From Bacteroidaceae bacterium (lineage in GTDB: Bacteria > Bacteroidota > Bacteroidia > Bacteroidales > Barnesiellaceae_A), in contig JAFXIZ010000025.1 in NCBI GenBank assembly GCA_017532725.1, forward strand, positions 1 through 47,512: DNA of 47,512 nucleotides. Reading direction: 5' to 3'. How positions within the stretch are numbered: position 1 is the first letter of the stretch; every line of letters starts with the position of its first letter. This document shows positions 23,971-43,480 of the stretch, in pieces. The notes under the pieces are model-generated. The model searched no databases. It was not told the DNA's origin and saw nothing but the letters and a program-made list of their open reading frames with translations. The position numbers and the translations under genes were made by a program.

Positions 23971-25278
23971 ATGAAATTTTCTACGCGCTTGAGTTTTTTG
24001 ATGATGTGCTTGTGTGCAGGCTTGGCTTCTGCTGTTGCACAAAATGATACTATAGTGGCCGATACTGCCGTAATCGATTCTTTGTCGTTTATTTCGGAGG
24101 TGGAAGATGTTTTGCAGGATCAACTGCCGTCTTACGATATGAGTGTGCTTTTTATGCCACTTGTCTTTGATAAGCAGGAGACTATACCTTATGACAAGTT
24201 GAGTGGTGTCGATACCGATGCCTCGGCCATTATGTGTGCCGCAAATGTCAATAATTATGCTCAGGCCGATTGGTTGGCAAGAGCCAATCGCTTGTCGAAC
24301 AGATTGCACGGCGCTCGCAATTATGTGATGGTCAATCGTCCCGACTTGGTGAAATATAACAGCAACACCTTGCCCAAAGCGCCTGAGGAGTCGATAATAG
24401 TAAACGATCCTACCAAGCAGAAGGTAACTGTTGCCGATAATCCCGATATTGCTCCCACGGCATTGGGTCAAGAGCCGGTAAAGGTTAAGCGTTGGATTAC
24501 TTCGTTTACAAGTGCCATACAGTTGTCGCAAGCCTACGTTTCGGACAATTGGTATCAAGGTGGTACAAGCAGTCTTAACCTCTTGAGCGACCAATTGTTT
24601 ACGATAAACTATAACGACCCTTCGGGCAAACTGTTGTTTGAGAATTTGGTGCAATGGAAGTTTAATCTTACCTCTTCGGCCGAGGATACAGTACACTCGG
24701 TGCGCGTGAGTGAGGATTTGTTCCAAATCAATTCAAAGTTTGGTTACAAGGCGTTTGGTAAGTGGTACTATTCGGCTTCGATGTTGTTCAAGACACAGTT
24801 GCTTACCAATTATGCTGCCAACTCAAATGACATACAGGCCGAGTTCCTTTCGCCCGGTGAGTTGAATATAGGTGTCGGTATGTCGTATTCGCACAGTTAT
24901 GAGAAGCCTGTCAAACTGTCGCATACTCTCACCATATCGCCTCTCTCTTACAACTTGCGTTTCTCGAAGAGTTTAGATCCTGTTAAGTTTGGTATTGATA
25001 AGGGTCGCACTCGTAATGAGTTCGGTTCTTCTATCGACTATACGCTCACTTGGGATATTCGCTACAACATTCGTTGGATGAGTCACGTTTATGCGTTTAC
25101 CAACTACGAAAACCTGTTGCTTGAGTGGACCAACTCGTTGGACTTCTCTTTCTCGACATATTTCTCGGCACGCTTGTACATCGACTTGCGTTATGACGAC
25201 AGCGTAGCACCCGATCCTAAATTGGGCTATCTGCAAATCAAGGAGTTGCTGAGTATAGGTTTCTCTTATAAGTTGTAA
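23971..25278 (+). CDS. DUF3078 family outer-membrane beta-barrel protein
   Basis: The 435-residue protein has a signal peptide (MKFSTRLSFLMMCLCAGLASA, cut near VAQN). From about residue 170 it shows the DUF3078 signature: a Trp-rich strand with DNWYQGGTSSLNLL, then alternating aromatic and polar strands to the C-terminus, ending GFSYKL. This suggests a beta-barrel in the outer membrane, common in Bacteroidetes but of unknown function. It is followed after one base by a small exported protein, so the two are likely made together. Confidence 0.8.
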   Translation: MKFSTRLSFLMMCLCAGLASAVAQNDTIVADTAVIDSLSFISEVEDVLQDQLPSYDMSVLFMPLVFDKQETIPYDKLSGVDTDASAIMCAANVNNYAQADWLARANRLSNRLHGARNYVMVNRPDLVKYNSNTLPKAPEESIIVNDPTKQKVTVADNPDIAPTALGQEPVKVKRWITSFTSAIQLSQAYVSDNWYQGGTSSLNLLSDQLFTINYNDPSGKLLFENLVQWKFNLTSSAEDTVHSVRVSEDLFQINSKFGYKAFGKWYYSASMLFKTQLLTNYAANSNDIQAEFLSPGELNIGVGMSYSHSYEKPVKLSHTLTISPLSYNLRFSKSLDPVKFGIDKGRTRNEFGSSIDYTLTWDIRYNIRWMSHVYAFTNYENLLLEWTNSLDFSFSTYFSARLYIDLRYDDSVAPDPKLGYLQIKELLSIGFSYKL

Positions 25279-25279
25279 T

Positions 25280-25846
25280 ATGTGCAATAGACTGTGTTGT
25301 ATGGTGTTGTCGGTGCTTATTGTGCCGATACTTACTTGTTGCAACTCATTCTATTCTCGTGGATATGGGCAGGGCGCAGTCAATTATGAACTGCCCGATA
25401 CGCTCGATAAGAATACCTTTGTAGCCTACCTCGATACGGCTGCTATTGATGATTGGGAGGGAATATGGCTGTTGTTAGGCCCCGAACAGCATTGTTTCTT
25501 GGCCATCGAGCGCATCAATAATTCGATGCAGAAGGCTGTATATACGCACCGTCTGCGACTGTGGGAGCCTTATTATGTCGGTGGGGTATATAGGGTAGAG
25601 CCGGGAGTGGTGGTAGGTTATCTCGAACAAGGAATATACGATTATGAGAAGAGGTTGTCGCTGTATGAAGGTTTCTTCTTGTCGCGACGTCGTTATGATA
25701 CAAGTGTGTTCCTTAACGAAACTAAAAGACTGATACTGTTTGAGGACAATAAACGATACAAGTCGCAGCCCGAACGCAAGGGAATGAAGCGTGTGTATCC
25801 TATAAAATCGCATAACGAGCGAGAACCCAAGGTACGCTATCTGTAG
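25280..25846 (+). CDS. Exported protein of unknown function, downstream of DUF3078
   Basis: The 188-residue protein starts with a hydrophobic leader (MCNRLCCMVLSVLIVPILTCC). The two cysteines suggest a lipoprotein, but the residue before either cysteine (Thr or Cys) is unlike the usual Gly, Ala or Ser. The mature part is mostly polar with a very basic C-terminus (many Lys and Arg after residue 140), which would be odd for a transmembrane protein. It lies 1 base after the DUF3078 stop, so co-expression is likely. I do not recognise the family. Confidence 0.65.
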   Translation: MCNRLCCMVLSVLIVPILTCCNSFYSRGYGQGAVNYELPDTLDKNTFVAYLDTAAIDDWEGIWLLLGPEQHCFLAIERINNSMQKAVYTHRLRLWEPYYVGGVYRVEPGVVVGYLEQGIYDYEKRLSLYEGFFLSRRRYDTSVFLNETKRLILFEDNKRYKSQPERKGMKRVYPIKSHNEREPKVRYL

Positions 25847-25856
25847 GATGGAAGCG

Positions 25857-26309
25857 TCAGTCTAATTTGGTAAAGATGTACCGATAGTCGTTGTACTTGA
25901 GAATCATCTCATCCCAATTGAGTTTTTCGATAACAAAGGTAGGCGATAACACATCGATATAGAGCGACTCTAAATCGCGCAACATTGCTGCTTTTTCCTC
26001 TTCGGTTATGGCATCATTAGCGTTGCCTTTGTGCTTGTAAAAATCTACTTGCATCAGGTCATCTTGTCGGCTATACAGTCCGGTGAAGGTTATATATTCG
26101 TAGGTGAGGTAGTTGACCTTGCGTACCTGTATGATGTCGCTTTGGAATGCAAAAAACACGGTATCGCAGGCGAATGTATTGCTTTCATATTCAATAGATT
26201 CCAATCTCCATTGACCAAAAAGTTCGCCTATGTAGCCATCGTTTTGTAAACACGATGTGGTGATGCATAGTGTTATGGCAGTTATGATGATGTATAGGGC
26301 TTGTTTCAT
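25857..26309 (-). CDS. Lipocalin-like lipoprotein
   Basis: The 150-residue protein has a lipoprotein signal (hydrophobic leader, then TSCLQND with Cys20). The mature part begins FGQWRLESIEY, the G-x-W motif of small lipocalin-like domains in Bacteroidetes, followed by alternating beta strands ending in a Tyr/Phe-rich strand. It should face the periplasm on the outer membrane. It starts 3 bases after the Wzi-like gene stop, making a two-gene operon. Ligand and function are unknown. Confidence 0.68.
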   Translation of the reverse strand: MKQALYIIITAITLCITTSCLQNDGYIGELFGQWRLESIEYESNTFACDTVFFAFQSDIIQVRKVNYLTYEYITFTGLYSRQDDLMQVDFYKHKGNANDAITEEEKAAMLRDLESLYIDVLSPTFVIEKLNWDEMILKYNDYRYIFTKLD

Positions 26310-26312
26310 ATC

Positions 26313-27869
26313 TTATTTAGTTTTCTTCTTGAAACTGAATAGTTTACCACTCTTCTTTACGCTGAGGCTGATGCCGGTGTTGTCGCCTATCAAGTTGCCG
26401 GCATCGATGGCAACAGCACCACAGAACTGCCACCCGTCGAGGGTGTGTGGCGCATAGGTGCATTCTATAAGCATCGAAGCCTGATACCTGTCTTGTCGAG
26501 CCGGTATAAAGGGTGTTCCCCAAGCCTCGCGATACGATGCCATAATGCGATATTGCCAATCATCATTCATATAGCCTCGCAATGCAAGGTGTCCACCTCT
26601 TACGCGAGTGTTGAGGTAGCGCATATAGCCATCGGTATTGTACATAATGGAGGGTGACATAGGTGTTCCTATACCGAATCCTCCTTGTTGCCAACCATTG
26701 AAGAAGTAGTTGTTGTAATAGTCGTCACCACCCGATGTGGCAGTTGTTACTTGAGTGTCTTCGTAGTCGTTGGGTTGCCACGGTATCGCGCCACTTTGGT
26801 TGTCGAGGCCTATATATTCTATTACAACATCCGATATTATGCTGCGACGGTTGGTGTGGTAGGATATACCCCACAAGCCGTCAAATCCGTTCTGCTTGCC
26901 CATACCCGAGCCATCTTCATATATCCATTGGGTGTATAATCGCAGTTTCGACTCATTGCCGAACTTGTACTCGGCTGCCATATCGATGGCTCCAATGTGG
27001 TTGCCGTAGGTAAACAATTGATCGCCTTTGATGGCACTCCCATCGCCGGCACTTGGCAAGAATGCTTGCAGGAACGACTTGAAGTTGAGGGGCGATTGTT
27101 GTGTCGATGTATGTTTGCCATCGTGATAGGCCTTGTTAATGCCACCAAACTGCACGCCGTCTTCTATTCCTATTGTAAAGACAAAAGGCTTGTTGGGGTT
27201 GGAGCGAAGGTACAATGACTTGTAGTGGTAATATACATCGGTTGTAATAAATGATGTGTAATATCCGTAGTGGTTGCGCAGGTAGTCGTCACCCAAGAAT
27301 TTTCCGTATGCAATATCACCTTTTATCTGTACCCAACCTTTGGTGAGTGGTATATCGACAAATCGATGAAATCCTATTTGTACCTGTGGGATGGGGCGAG
27401 TATTGCCCGATAGTATCAAGTTGCCCGATGATAGGTCGAAATTGGTAATGGGGTTTTCGTGGGCTTTCTCTCTCATACCTATCGACAAGAAGAGCGAGCG
27501 GTACTTGATGTCGGCATACAACTGTTGTATGCGAAATATTTGAGGCCTTACTTGCTTGGTTGTGAAAGCACCGTTTTCCCACTGTCGCACCGGCGATGTT
27601 GTTTCGTAGTTGCCCATCAACTCCACACCGGCTGCGTATGAGAAACGTTTGGTGCTATCCATCTCAATGAATGCTCCGGCTCGCAGATATACACCACAAC
27701 CGTTGGCTACTGTACCGTAACGGTTGGCTGTCATATAGTATGGTGCAAAGTCGCGAGGCGATGCGTGAGCCGATAATTCGGTGCTATACACAACTCCATC
27801 CTGACCTTGTGTGGTCATAGCCAAGGAGCATATAGCGAGCAGTATAAGCAGTAATGATTTTCTTTTCAT
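26313..27869 (-). CDS. Wzi-like capsule assembly family outer-membrane beta-barrel
   Basis: The 518-residue protein has a signal peptide (MKRKSLLLILLAICSLAMTTQG). The mature part is made of alternating aromatic strands with turns such as RNHYGYYTSFITTDVYYHYK and a C-terminal strand near LIGDNTGISLSVKKSGKLF, fitting the Wzi-like capsule assembly proteins of Bacteroidetes. Wzi of enterobacteria helps hold capsule on the outer surface. The lipoprotein gene is 3 bases downstream. The polysaccharide locus starts about 3 kb away, which makes the role plausible but not proven. Confidence 0.72.
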   Translation of the reverse strand: MKRKSLLLILLAICSLAMTTQGQDGVVYSTELSAHASPRDFAPYYMTANRYGTVANGCGVYLRAGAFIEMDSTKRFSYAAGVELMGNYETTSPVRQWENGAFTTKQVRPQIFRIQQLYADIKYRSLFLSIGMREKAHENPITNFDLSSGNLILSGNTRPIPQVQIGFHRFVDIPLTKGWVQIKGDIAYGKFLGDDYLRNHYGYYTSFITTDVYYHYKSLYLRSNPNKPFVFTIGIEDGVQFGGINKAYHDGKHTSTQQSPLNFKSFLQAFLPSAGDGSAIKGDQLFTYGNHIGAIDMAAEYKFGNESKLRLYTQWIYEDGSGMGKQNGFDGLWGISYHTNRRSIISDVVIEYIGLDNQSGAIPWQPNDYEDTQVTTATSGGDDYYNNYFFNGWQQGGFGIGTPMSPSIMYNTDGYMRYLNTRVRGGHLALRGYMNDDWQYRIMASYREAWGTPFIPARQDRYQASMLIECTYAPHTLDGWQFCGAVAIDAGNLIGDNTGISLSVKKSGKLFSFKKKTK

Positions 27870-27899: not shown

Positions 27900-27942
27900 G
27901 TAATTCCTTTCAAATAAAACAGGGTAACAAGGGTGTATAATA

Positions 27943-27977
27943 CAATAGGGCAACCAATCGATGTGGTCGCCCTATTG
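27943..27977 (-). terminator. Hairpin after the second beta-barrel gene
   Basis: The arms CAATAGGGCAACCA (27943-27956) and TGGTCGCCCTATTG (27964-27977) pair over 14 positions with one mismatched pair and a seven-base loop, 22 bases beyond the barrel stop. The minus-strand tail (TATTATA) is only moderately T-rich, so termination is likely but perhaps incomplete. Confidence 0.7.
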
Positions 27978-27998
27978 TAAGATAGTATAATTACTGCA

Positions 27999-28625
27999 TC
28001 AGAATGAGAAACCGAGGTGGAAACCTACGTTGTTTATTCCGTTGATGTCGTAAGTGAGTATTCGGCTTTGATTGGTTGAGTAGTTATAGTATGCAGCAAT
28101 GTGGATACCGTAGCGTTTTGCTGCCGAAGGATAGATTGTTACACCCACCTCGGGTTGCACGTTGAAACCCCATTTCTCTTCGTAAAATTCCCACACTTGT
28201 GTTGTCGAAGATGTGCGCGAGAACATAGTACCAATCTTGGCTGTTACATACGGCTCAAACATCGTATCTTCTACAAAGCGATATTTGAGTAATGCGCCGA
28301 ATGGTATTTGGAATACCGAGTGTATTTGGTCGGTGTAGAGGTGGCTCGACTCGTTGAGTTGTAACAACTCCTCGCCTATGTGCTTGTTGGCTGTGTGGAA
28401 CGAGGCATACAAGCCCACCGCCAACTTGGAGTTGACATAATAACCACCTTCAAAGTTCATACCCCATCCGGTAGGTGTGTCGGCATAGTCGTTGCCTACT
28501 ATTGCGTTGAACTGCCAATCGATGTTGAAGTACATCGGTTTGTATAATTGAGCCGAGGCTGTGAGTGTGCAAATGGTACCCGATAGTACCACGATTGCCG
28601 CTATTATAGAGAGTCTTCTTTTCAT
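27999..28625 (-). CDS. Outer-membrane beta-barrel protein, copy B of the tandem module
   Basis: The 208-residue protein has a signal peptide ending near LTASAQ and a barrel of alternating aromatic strands ending in the terminal Phe of GFSF. It starts at ATG 28623-28625; a longer open frame upstream overlaps the DUF4136 gene and has no signal peptide. It is clearly homologous to the 208-residue barrel at 29478-30104, sharing WGMNFEGGYY, KWGFNVQPE/SWGFNVQPE and YNYSTN. It begins 19 bases after the DUF4136 stop. The family resembles small eight-stranded OmpA/OmpW-like barrels; the role is unknown. Confidence 0.75.
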   Translation of the reverse strand: MKRRLSIIAAIVVLSGTICTLTASAQLYKPMYFNIDWQFNAIVGNDYADTPTGWGMNFEGGYYVNSKLAVGLYASFHTANKHIGEELLQLNESSHLYTDQIHSVFQIPFGALLKYRFVEDTMFEPYVTAKIGTMFSRTSSTTQVWEFYEEKWGFNVQPEVGVTIYPSAAKRYGIHIAAYYNYSTNQSRILTYDINGINNVGFHLGFSF

Positions 28626-28644
28626 TTTTGTCGAGTGCTTGTGG

Positions 28645-29301
28645 TTATTGTGCATTACTGTTGATATAGGGCGATTGCTCAAATGCCTGGTATATACCGG
28701 CAACGGCATTGGCAATGTTTATCTGGTTGCTTGTCTCGATACCGGCCAAAACCGATGTCCATACAAAGGGCAGTTGCTTGGTCTCTTTGTCGGCTTCCTT
28801 CAAGGCTATCATTTCGGTAACCAAACTGCCTACGGTGTAAGAGTAACCAACGCTGTAGGGGTAGTAGGGGTACCAATCGATGTAGAACGGATCCCAATAA
28901 TCCATAGGCCAATAGTAGTAATCCCACCAATAGGGATATACATATCCTACATATTCGTGTGTGTTCTTAATGTAGGTCAATATAATGCCCAAGTCGGCTT
29001 GTTTACGGTCGGCTACTTGTCTATATCCCTTTGCACTCATTTCGCTTACAACGGCTTCTACTATTTGGCGAGCGCGAGGGTCGCTTGTCGAGTAGTATTG
29101 AGGCTCGGTGTATCTTGTATCGATCTTTAACAAACTGTCGGGGATGTAGAATGTCTTGTATTGCGAGAAGTCGCATTGATTGTCGTAATGGGTATATACC
29201 ATCAGGTCGGTCGATAGTTGCTCCATATCGGGGGCTTTCTGACAAGCCGTGGCTATGATTGCCATTATAAACAGTGGGAGAAGTTTCTTGATTTTTGTCA
29301 T
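28645..29301 (-). CDS. DUF4136 family lipoprotein, copy B of the tandem module
   Basis: The 218-residue protein has a lipoprotein signal with Cys20 (IIATACQKAP). The mature protein has the DUF4136 pattern: YTHYDNQCDFSQYKTFYIPD near residue 36-55, RARQIVEAVVSEMSAKGY near 76-93 and ADLGIILTYI. Residues 117-155 are extraordinarily aromatic, with 21 of 39 Tyr, Trp or Phe. It has a nearly perfect consensus promoter and is followed by its barrel partner. It is homologous to the gene at 30163-30819 (both 218 residues). Confidence 0.8.
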   Translation of the reverse strand: MTKIKKLLPLFIMAIIATACQKAPDMEQLSTDLMVYTHYDNQCDFSQYKTFYIPDSLLKIDTRYTEPQYYSTSDPRARQIVEAVVSEMSAKGYRQVADRKQADLGIILTYIKNTHEYVGYVYPYWWDYYYWPMDYWDPFYIDWYPYYPYSVGYSYTVGSLVTEMIALKEADKETKQLPFVWTSVLAGIETSNQINIANAVAGIYQAFEQSPYINSNAQ

Positions 29302-29331
29302 AGAATTAATATTTTATATATAAATATGCCA

Positions 29332-29362
29332 CAAAGATATACTAATTTTTGTAAATGGCAAA
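29332..29362 (-). promoter_or_regulatory. Consensus Bacteroidetes promoter for copy B
   Basis: On the minus strand TTTG lies at 29362-29359 and TATCTTTG at 29339-29332, separated by exactly 19 bases. This matches the TTTG-N19-TAnnTTTG promoter consensus. The predicted start of transcription is about 25 bases before the ATG at 29301. It is the best full promoter match seen in this window. Confidence 0.8.
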
Positions 29363-29402
29363 AGGTTTTACTCTATTCAATAATAATTTGTTTTGTGATG
29401 TT

Positions 29403-29451
29403 ATAAAACAGAGGGGGCTGCACCCAAAGTATCTCTTCAGGTACAGCCTCT
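29403..29451 (-). terminator. Terminator after the first barrel gene (copy A)
   Basis: GAGGGGGCTGCACC (29411-29424) pairs with GGTACAGCCTCT (29440-29451) over about 9-10 positions with one mismatch, and on the minus strand it is followed by a T-rich tract (GTTTTAT). It separates copy A from copy B, so the two copies have independent transcription. Confidence 0.72.
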
Positions 29452-29477
29452 ATAGGTAAGAAATGAATGTTTGTCTA

Positions 29478-30104
29478 TCAGAACGACAAGCCGAGGTGGA
29501 AGCCTATGTTGTTGTAGCCGTCGATGTTGTAAGTGAGAACTTTACTCTTGTTGGTCGAGTAGTTGTAGTAGATGGCGAGGTGCATACCTATACGTTTTGA
29601 TGGCATCGGGTAGAAGGTCATACCCAACTCGGGTTGTACATTGAAACCCCACGACTTGTCATAGTAGGTATATACCTGTGTTTCCGACTCCATACGGGCG
29701 TACATCGCTCCGAGTTTTACGGCTATATATGGCTCAAACATACCATATTCTATAAATCGCCAGCGCGCTGCCATACCGAATGGCACTTGATATATGGAGT
29801 GTTGTTGGTCGGCATATAGGCTCTCGGTGCTGCTCAAGTGTAATACTTGTTCGCCTATGTACTTGTTGTTGGTGTGATACGAAACGTATAGTCCCAACGA
29901 CATTTGGGGAATGATGTAGTAGCCACCTTCAAAGTTCATACCCCATCCACTGCCTCTATTGGCGTAGTCGTTGCCAATGGGTATGTTGAATTGCCAATCG
30001 ACATTGAAGTATCCACCCTTGAGTAATTGGGCTTGCGCTATCGAGGGCGATGTGATGGCAGCAAATAGCAATATTACGCCCACTATTTTAGTTATCTTTT
30101 TCAT
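29478..30104 (-). CDS. Outer-membrane beta-barrel protein, copy A of the tandem module
   Basis: The 208-residue protein has a signal peptide ending near SIAQAQ and the barrel pattern with terminal GLSF. It shares length and long identical stretches with the barrel at 27999-28625 (IGNDYA/VGNDYA, GWGMNFEGGYY, NYSTN), so the two are paralogs. It follows the copy A lipoprotein by 58 bases, a wider gap than in copy B. No recognisable enzymatic motif is present. Confidence 0.75.
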   Translation of the reverse strand: MKKITKIVGVILLFAAITSPSIAQAQLLKGGYFNVDWQFNIPIGNDYANRGSGWGMNFEGGYYIIPQMSLGLYVSYHTNNKYIGEQVLHLSSTESLYADQQHSIYQVPFGMAARWRFIEYGMFEPYIAVKLGAMYARMESETQVYTYYDKSWGFNVQPELGMTFYPMPSKRIGMHLAIYYNYSTNKSKVLTYNIDGYNNIGFHLGLSF

Positions 30105-30162
30105 CGTAGTAAATTATTAAAGTGACACAATGCGTGGTAATGTGTGGTGATGCGTACACACG

Positions 30163-30819
30163 TTATCGTTCGACGCTCGACAGTATGTAGGGCGATTGTT
30201 CAAATGCTTGGTATATGCCCGATACGGTCTTGTTTATGTTGAATTGGTTGCTCGATTGTATGCCGGCCATATAGGCAGTCCACAATACGGGTATTTTCTT
30301 TGTTGTGGCGTTGGCATCTTCGAGCGCTACAATCTCTACTATGAGCGAGCCTATTGTATAGGTGTAGGTTATAGGGTAGGCATACGACGGCCCCCAGCCA
30401 CCCCAATAAGGATTCCAATAACTACCGGGCCAATAGTAGTCGTAGCCATACCACCAATAGGGGTTGGTCGAGGCGTAGGATATAATGGTGTTGGTATCCT
30501 TTACATAACTCACTTGCAAGCCGAGGTCGGCTTCGGCGTTGTTGGTGCGTACATAGCCTCTCGTTTTCATTTCGCTGTTGATGGCTTGTATGATAGCCGT
30601 CGTGCGAGGGTCATCGGCGGCAAAGTAGGAGGGTTTGGCTTTATCGTCGAGGAGCAGTATGCTGTCGGGGATGGCGTAAGTCGTGTATTTGCCGAAGTTG
30701 GCACTCTTGTCGTAGTTGGTATATACGATAAGTTCGCTCGACAGTTCGTTGAGGTCGGGCTCTTTCTGACAGGCTGCAAAGGTTGCTGCCAATAGCAAAA
30801 TAGGAATTACCTTTTTCAT
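30163..30819 (-). CDS. DUF4136 family lipoprotein, copy A of the tandem module
   Basis: The 218-residue protein has a lipoprotein signal with Cys17 (TFAACQKEP). It has the same architecture as the protein at 28645-29301: YTNYDKSANFGKYTTYAIPD, EADLGLQVSYV and a C-terminal end IYQAFEQSPYI identical in its core to copy B. Residues 115-154 are again very rich in Tyr and Trp. It is divergently transcribed from the polysaccharide genes at 30996, and a 19-bp palindrome lies upstream of its ATG at 30861-30879. No exact -7 match was found in its upstream region. Confidence 0.8.
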   Translation of the reverse strand: MKKVIPILLLAATFAACQKEPDLNELSSELIVYTNYDKSANFGKYTTYAIPDSILLLDDKAKPSYFAADDPRTTAIIQAINSEMKTRGYVRTNNAEADLGLQVSYVKDTNTIISYASTNPYWWYGYDYYWPGSYWNPYWGGWGPSYAYPITYTYTIGSLIVEIVALEDANATTKKIPVLWTAYMAGIQSSNQFNINKTVSGIYQAFEQSPYILSSVER

Positions 30820-30879: not shown

Positions 30880-30970
30880 AAACAATGTTATGATGCCAAT
30901 TGTTTGGAGCCACTCGTTGTGTATTTATGCAAAAAATGGGGAAATGAGCCGTTAATATATAGAATATTGT

Positions 30971-42673: not shown

Positions 42674-43480
42674 TTATTTTGTGAGTGCTATAAAGAGTGA
42701 TGCTACTACCGATACAGCCGATGTGATGGCACTTACGATTGATACGGTGTATTGCTTGTTTTGGCTATAGTTTGCATATCCTTTTCTTGCATCGTTGGGT
42801 TCTACATATATTACATCGTTGCGTTGCAAATAGTAGTAGGGCGATGTGAATACGTCGGGTTGCGAAAGGTCGATGCGATTGAATGTGCGTGTGCCGTTCT
42901 CTTCGCGAATAAGCAGCACATTGGTGTGATTACCATAAATGGTTATGTCATTGGCCAATCCGAGTGCGTCGAGTATAGTGGTGCGTTCGCTCTTTATCTC
43001 GTATGTGCCGGGGTGTGTTACTTCGCCAAGAACGGTGACCTTATGATTGATGCATTGCAGGTTAACAATGGGATTTTCTACATACTTGCTTATCTTCTCT
43101 TTGAGTTGTTCGGTGGCCTCTTTTCGGGTCATACCACCAATTTTTACTTTGCCCAATACGGGGTAGTCTATGCAGCCTTCGCTATCGACAAGGTATGTCT
43201 GCATAGAGGGGGTTGTAATGAGCAATGATTCGCCGGGTGCCAGATAGTTCTGCGTGGGCAGGTTGAATATTGCTACAGCATTAGGGTCTAATGCGGTAAC
43301 GGTTATCAGCAACATATCATCGGGCTTGATGGGCGATTCGTACTCTTTTATTGAGTCGGGAATAACTTGGGTTATATTGCCATCTTTGGCCATTTCAGAG
43401 AAATACAACATCTCTTTTGATGGCTTACATGATGTGATGGCAAGCAATAAAACGGGGATAAAAAGTATATATTTTTTCAT
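42674..43480 (-). CDS. Polysaccharide export outer-membrane lipoprotein (Wza-like)
   Basis: The 268-residue protein has a lipoprotein signal (LLLAITSCKPSK) and a polysaccharide-export domain with SLBB repeats: PIKPDDMLLITV near residue 51, DYPVLGKVKIGGMTRKEA around 109-126 and VTVLGEVTHPGTYEI near 148. The last 40 residues include a hydrophobic helix. It forms the outer-membrane pore end of the export pathway and works with the Wzc protein, 39 bases downstream. It is the first gene of the nine-gene minus-strand operon and has a -7 element at 43500-43507. Confidence 0.95.
   Translation of the reverse strand: MKKYILFIPVLLLAITSCKPSKEMLYFSEMAKDGNITQVIPDSIKEYESPIKPDDMLLITVTALDPNAVAIFNLPTQNYLAPGESLLITTPSMQTYLVDSEGCIDYPVLGKVKIGGMTRKEATEQLKEKISKYVENPIVNLQCINHKVTVLGEVTHPGTYEIKSERTTILDALGLANDITIYGNHTNVLLIREENGTRTFNRIDLSQPDVFTSPYYYLQRNDVIYVEPNDARKGYANYSQNKQYTVSIVSAITSAVSVVASLFIALTK

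Follow-up and report, generated by a model that had tools for sequence, protein, structure and literature searches.

A tandem DUF4136 lipoprotein-barrel gene pair in a Bacteroidaceae genome: conserved pairing, clade-specific duplication and a candidate promoter switch

Two copies of a two-gene unit, each coding for a DUF4136 lipoprotein and a small outer-membrane barrel, lie in tandem in the window, i.e. the whole stretch of 47,512 nucleotides analysed here (contig JAFXIZ010000025.1 of assembly GCA_017532725.1, Bacteroidaceae bacterium). The question raised by this locus is whether the lipoprotein and the barrel work together at the outer membrane, and what a second copy of the pair adds.

Layout and predicted folds of the two units

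The two head-to-tail copies described in the sequence-only reading were confirmed, and all four genes were found on the minus strand (Table 1), with the lipoprotein gene first and the barrel gene second in each unit, and with unit A followed by unit B. The lipoprotein and barrel genes are separated by 58 nt in unit A and by 19 nt in unit B, and the stretch between the units is 176 nt. As judged against the Pfam curated cut-offs, lipoproteins A and B matched the whole DUF4136 profile (PF13590, 1-152) with 96 and 89 bits (cut-off 32.8), and barrels A and B matched OMP_b-brl (PF13505) with 45 and 42 bits (cut-off 28.7), respectively; NCBIfam gave no name for any of the four proteins. The lipoproteins share 42% identity over their full length (E 3e-67), the barrels share 54% without gaps (E 5e-94), and the DNA of the copies is 72% identical in stretches of 173 and 113 nt. 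The conserved blocks pointed out earlier (WGMNFEGGYY and WGFNVQPE in the barrels, IYQAFEQSPYI in the lipoproteins) are present. The identical lengths of the copies are true in the window but partly an accident, as relatives vary from 215 to 219 aa for the lipoproteins and from 204 to 209 aa for the barrels, counted only where the position of the start codon is clear. At the thresholds used, no further copy of either family was found in this genome. A phage origin and a defence-system reading of the units were rejected on account of no match in the phage collection and no PADLOC match, respectively.

Table 1. Positions of the two units, their candidate signals and adjoining genes in the window
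Feature	Position	Strand	Description
Lipoprotein A, DUF4136 (PF13590)	30163..30819	-	218 aa, lipobox ...FAAC17-QKEPD; profile match and fold model
Barrel A, OMP_b-brl (PF13505)	29478..30104	-	208 aa; predicted signal peptide, then eight strands
Lipoprotein B, DUF4136	28645..29301	-	218 aa, lipobox ...IATAC-QKAPD; profile match
Barrel B, OMP_b-brl	27999..28625	-	208 aa; profile match
Candidate ECF-sigma-type promoter, unit A	30881..30904	-	AAC-N18-GTT, first base 85 nt upstream of ATG
Candidate housekeeping promoter, unit B	29332..29362	-	TTTG-N19-TATCTTTG, -7 box 38 nt upstream of ATG
Terminator-like hairpin between units A and B	29408..29453	-	-24.6 kcal/mol for 78-nt stretch, z -4.4
Terminator-like 16-bp hairpin 3' of barrel B	27941..27979	-	
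Wzi-like capsule assembly protein (PF14052)	26313..27869	-	downstream of unit only in Barnesiella-like lineage
Lipocalin_8 lipoprotein (PF16585)	25857..26309	-	lineage-specific neighbour

The barrel was modelled with eight strands (mean pLDDT 89.7), and the model matched OmpA, NspA and OmpW with Z of 16-17, and also Ail and OmpX; its C-terminal residue is a nearly invariant Phe. The lipoprotein model (pLDDT 79.6) matched 4f54 with Z of 17.9 over 141 residues at 33% identity, in agreement with the sequence match of 4f54 to lipoprotein A (E 2e-43), and a domain of 4l8n, a Parabacteroides PDZ protein, with Z of 13.2. Further fold matches were PelC (Z 9.6), TraT (9.2), CsgG (7.4) and LptE (6.7), with TolB also lower. 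The PelC and TraT matches, with rmsd of 5-6 A and about 8-10% identity, are likenesses at the level of fold, and neither protein was among the matches when the DUF4136 profile was searched against the PDB, where the matches besides 4f54 were weak and mostly Tyr/Trp-rich loops of antibodies. Such a likeness of fold does not amount to a shared function.

Between the two long strands of the lipoprotein lies an insert modelled with low confidence, which consists to 49% of Trp, Tyr and Phe and to 5% of charged residues, and which, by analogy with PelC and TraT, may be the membrane contact. A Gly/Tyr-rich insert or loop is common to all the DUF4136 proteins compared, whereas the Trp/Tyr richness of the insert was 40-58% in barrel-paired members and 7-33% in unpaired ones. 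The lipobox Cys17 is invariant in 54 aligned members, and LPAM_1 was matched weakly by the lipoproteins (14.9 bits). The residues from the Cys onward, C[Q/E]K[D/E]PD, deviate from the surface-export signal (LES) CS(D/E)2-3 and partly match the Capnocytophaga export form K-(D/E)2.

Pairing, duplication and neighbourhood

The pairing was surveyed in 198 Bacteroidales genomes, with DUF4136 detected by profile and the barrel by sequence search. A DUF4136 gene lay directly upstream on the same strand for 40 of the 43 barrel matches (in 36 genomes), with 29-143 nt between the match ends, and for 76 of the 78 named loci, and in the remaining two loci the contig ends less than 330 nt from the barrel. 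Since the next commonest flanking gene (8 kb on each side) occurred at 15 of the 78 loci, general conservation of gene order does not explain the pairing. The two genes are also adjacent in Persicobacter, a member of another order, and in a phylum-wide search at least 11 of the 23 barrels other than those of the window adjoined DUF4136 (upstream in at least nine, downstream in at least two). Judging from these neighbourhoods, the pairing of lipoprotein and barrel is real and old. The co-occurrence expected in Bacteroidales from the window held from the side of the barrel, which is near-always accompanied by DUF4136, but not from the side of DUF4136, which was without this barrel in 53 of the 93 match rows, about half; in the wider sample of the phylum, most DUF4136-bearing genomes had no barrel-profile match among the matches listed. 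DUF4136 matches with open frames of 444-552 aa form a class of long DUF4136 proteins.

Of the eight closest named loci, six (L063-L068, from ruminant-gut MAGs labelled Bacteroidaceae) have two copies, and L069 and L070 have a single copy each. As copies A and B formed matching sister clades in both the lipoprotein tree and the barrel tree (joint clade support 99), the trees indicate one duplication of the whole pair, after which the partners were never swapped. The tandem copy is confined to the genus-level clade of the window. The L069 copy clustered with copy A in the trees, and copy B was probably lost there. In some relatives the two units are separated by 0.7-1.8 kb of other sequence, and in two of the relatives (L067:8628-9939 and L068:8628-10402) a gene for a 158-aa protein is located between the units. 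The earlier proposal that lipoprotein and barrel work together can be kept in so far as the genomic evidence (a barrel gene almost always next to DUF4136, joint duplication and matching trees) speaks strongly for a functional unit, but DUF4136 is often free of the barrel.

The closeness to a polysaccharide locus, also noted from the sequence, is true in the window, where glycosyltransferase/Wzy/Wzz/Wza-type genes and a Poly_export protein of the locus's own (42674-43480) are encoded, but the link is lineage-specific and the functional hint is weak. The Wzi/Lipocalin_8/DUF3078 neighbourhood was found at 12-14 of the 78 loci, just in the Barnesiella-like lineage, and elsewhere the neighbours are unrelated. 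The block kept in that lineage (23971-27869) comprises a DUF3078 protein, a 188-aa protein with no Pfam match, Lipocalin_8 and Wzi. In two genomes (L039 and L040), the pair is followed by genes for a 254-aa membrane protein that is, as judged by eye, steroid 5-alpha-reductase-like and for an old-yellow-enzyme-like protein.

Candidate promoters and sigma factor

For the promoter comparison, 54 non-redundant upstream regions of the lipoprotein gene (copy B excluded) were set against 648 control regions, taken upstream of other genes at these loci. Of the 54, 42 contained AAC-N15..19-GTT, as did 85 of the 648 controls (13%); the p of 7e-24 is descriptive because the motif was spotted in these same sequences. 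Spacings of 17 and 18 were seen 23 and 18 times versus 1.2 and 1.7 expected, respectively, and the form AACTTTT-N-TTGTT was found in 13 of the 54 versus none of the 648. Within the duplicated clade, AAC-N17/18-GTT was located upstream of copy A in 7/7 cases and of copy B in 0/7, and the housekeeping -7 box TAnnTTTG upstream of copy B in 7/7 cases and of copy A in 0/7, with 5/54 among the non-copy-B units. The fixed spacing and the clean split between A and B are stronger promoter evidence than the p-value. Read from these alignments, the unit has a conserved bipartite promoter, AAC-N17/18-GTT, which is lost in copy B and which we take to resemble ECF-sigma promoters in general. The box is also similar to TGTT, the -10 element of the second class of promoters in Bacteroides thetaiotaomicron, for which enrichment in front of oxidative-stress genes is described (PMC7366714, PMC12596196). 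The candidate promoter of unit B was recognized with the sigma-ABfr consensus from PMC7366714, and the terminator-like hairpin that separates the units agrees with A and B being transcribed separately.

When the strict promoter pattern was searched genome-wide, the matches were about equal in number to those of the reversed control, with no excess; a genome-wide regulon from this pattern was dropped for that reason, and the sigma assignment rests on orthologous positions. A gene for a 167-aa ECF sigma factor (G000:C52:3265-3765; L174/L166) is preceded by AACTTTT-N-TTGTT in the window's own genome and by a similar box in 8 of the 9 genomes of the genus, and the four closest rubrerythrin genes (L144, L204-L206) have an AAC-N17/18-GTT box about 50-70 nt upstream, the control rate of the box being 7.5% per 180 nt. 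As the sigma and rubrerythrin cases were picked from a screen with a total close to the control, they are taken as leads. The product of the sigma gene is possibly an autoregulated stress sigma factor of this clade. No anti-sigma gene is evident just downstream of it. The box was not found in front of the homologous sigma genes that were checked in Bacteroides, Phocaeicola and Parabacteroides, and autoregulation beyond the genus was rejected accordingly. Glutathione peroxidase was rejected as a regulon member, with the gene in just 2 of the 9 genomes.

Proposed role and comparison with known systems

The reading preferred here, to which a probability of about 0.45 is assigned, is that of an envelope-stress outer-membrane pair that was duplicated and then re-wired at its promoter. 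Each unit would be a two-gene operon for an outer-membrane pair, in which an eight-stranded OmpA/OmpX/OmpW-like barrel would be combined with a lipoprotein whose core is PelC/TraT/LptE-like and whose insert is aromatic and uncharged. Expression of the ancestral unit would depend on an ECF-type sigma factor and would most likely respond to envelope, oxidative or stationary-phase stress. The lipoprotein would probably lie beside or on the barrel at the surface of the outer membrane, and its Trp/Tyr insert would occupy the membrane interface; together the two proteins would strengthen or seal the outer membrane. At the single duplication in the clade of the window, copy A would have retained the stress promoter and copy B would have acquired a housekeeping one, with copy B as a constant supply beside the inducible copy A. 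What the sequence itself shows is the pairing, the single joint duplication, the promoter that copy B has lost and the inter-unit hairpin, and the folds were predicted; it is contact of lipoprotein and barrel, membrane insertion, ECF control and envelope protection that we infer. A more specific form, namely a Bacteroidota-specific stress complex of the outer membrane, with a PelC/TraT-like lipoprotein that sits, perhaps as a ring and with the Trp/Tyr insert in the membrane, on a small OmpX-type barrel, and in which the duplication yielded stress-induced and constitutive copies, is regarded as unlikely.

Adjacency and a shared promoter would account for the genomics without any binding if two independent outer-membrane proteins were simply co-transcribed for the same condition, and the frequent DUF4136 proteins without this barrel, together with the reversed order in at least two phylum matches, agree with such an arrangement. 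It is nevertheless considered doubtful, given a barrel that is almost never without its DUF4136 partner across the whole order, no swapping of partners after the duplication and an insert that is richer in Trp/Tyr where DUF4136 is paired with the barrel. Less probable still is that a PelC-like lipoprotein passes or holds the surface polysaccharide of the neighbouring locus. The fold match to PelC, the architecture of PelBC as a lipoprotein ring on a barrel (PMC12141448) and the Wzi and glycosyltransferase/Wzy/Wzz/Wza-type genes adjoining in the window point that way, but an eight-stranded barrel has no polymer pore (PelB has 16 strands), the locus already encodes its own export protein, and polysaccharide neighbours are not conserved outside the Barnesiella-like lineage. 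Because the barrel passes no polymer and export is otherwise provided for, envelope protection is favoured over polysaccharide export.

A small chance is likewise given to a surface interaction factor, in which an Ail/NspA/OmpX-like barrel and a surface-exposed lipoprotein would contact host molecules, complement or other bacteria. The barrel does match Ail, NspA and OmpX, BT2437 is a natural gut IgA target in mice with diet-dependent reactivity (PMC6831775), and TraT has surface-shielding roles. The residues after the Cys do not correspond, however, to CS(D/E)2, the signal for export that was tested in B. thetaiotaomicron, the IgA screen was run on E. coli clones and so does not demonstrate exposure, and relatives also occur in non-gut bacteria such as Persicobacter.

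What is described is a real and conserved two-gene system that has no name, was duplicated in one clade and shows a clear switch of promoter there; the envelope-stress mechanism is proposed for it. Many gut Bacteroidales carry the pair, Phocaeicola vulgatus and Parabacteroides among them, and one member is a natural IgA target. Through their pairing, promoter class and fold leads, two anonymous families become one testable system, and the tandem copies are a natural experiment in promoter re-wiring.

Among known proteins, BT2437 (PDB 4f54) and BT_2438 of B. thetaiotaomicron are, like the products of the window, a DUF4136 lipoprotein and an OMP_b-brl barrel, with consecutive locus numbers, and we know of no tandem copy there. 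No published function was found for BT2437, BT_2438 or the pair; BT_2438 is listed among fucosylated proteins (PMC8931616). The N-terminal domain of OmpA, OmpX, OmpW and NspA are eight-stranded like the barrel of the window (Z 14-17), at 8-13% identity. None of these four has, to our knowledge, an obligate lipoprotein neighbour. LptE is likewise a lipoprotein, with a core resembling that of the model and an outer-membrane barrel as partner (LptD), but the match is weak and LptD is a very large barrel. TraT has a core of similar fold and an in-sheet membrane element of low AlphaFold confidence, its membrane helices being modelled with low confidence (PMC11733297); the element is helical in TraT versus the W/Y/G/P insert here, and no partner barrel is described in the portions of its literature consulted. 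PelC, like the lipoprotein of the window, is an outer-membrane lipoprotein with a barrel partner, and its core is similar at the level of fold. A conserved Trp of PelC enters the membrane and is required for assembly on PelB (PMC12141448), and the Trp-rich insert would be the counterpart here. PelC differs in the 16-stranded, polymer-conducting barrel of its partner and in having no detectable sequence similarity. Beside these systems, the conserved candidate ECF-type promoter with its split between copies A and B and the fold likeness of the lipoprotein, together with its insert of about half Trp/Tyr, are new in this work.
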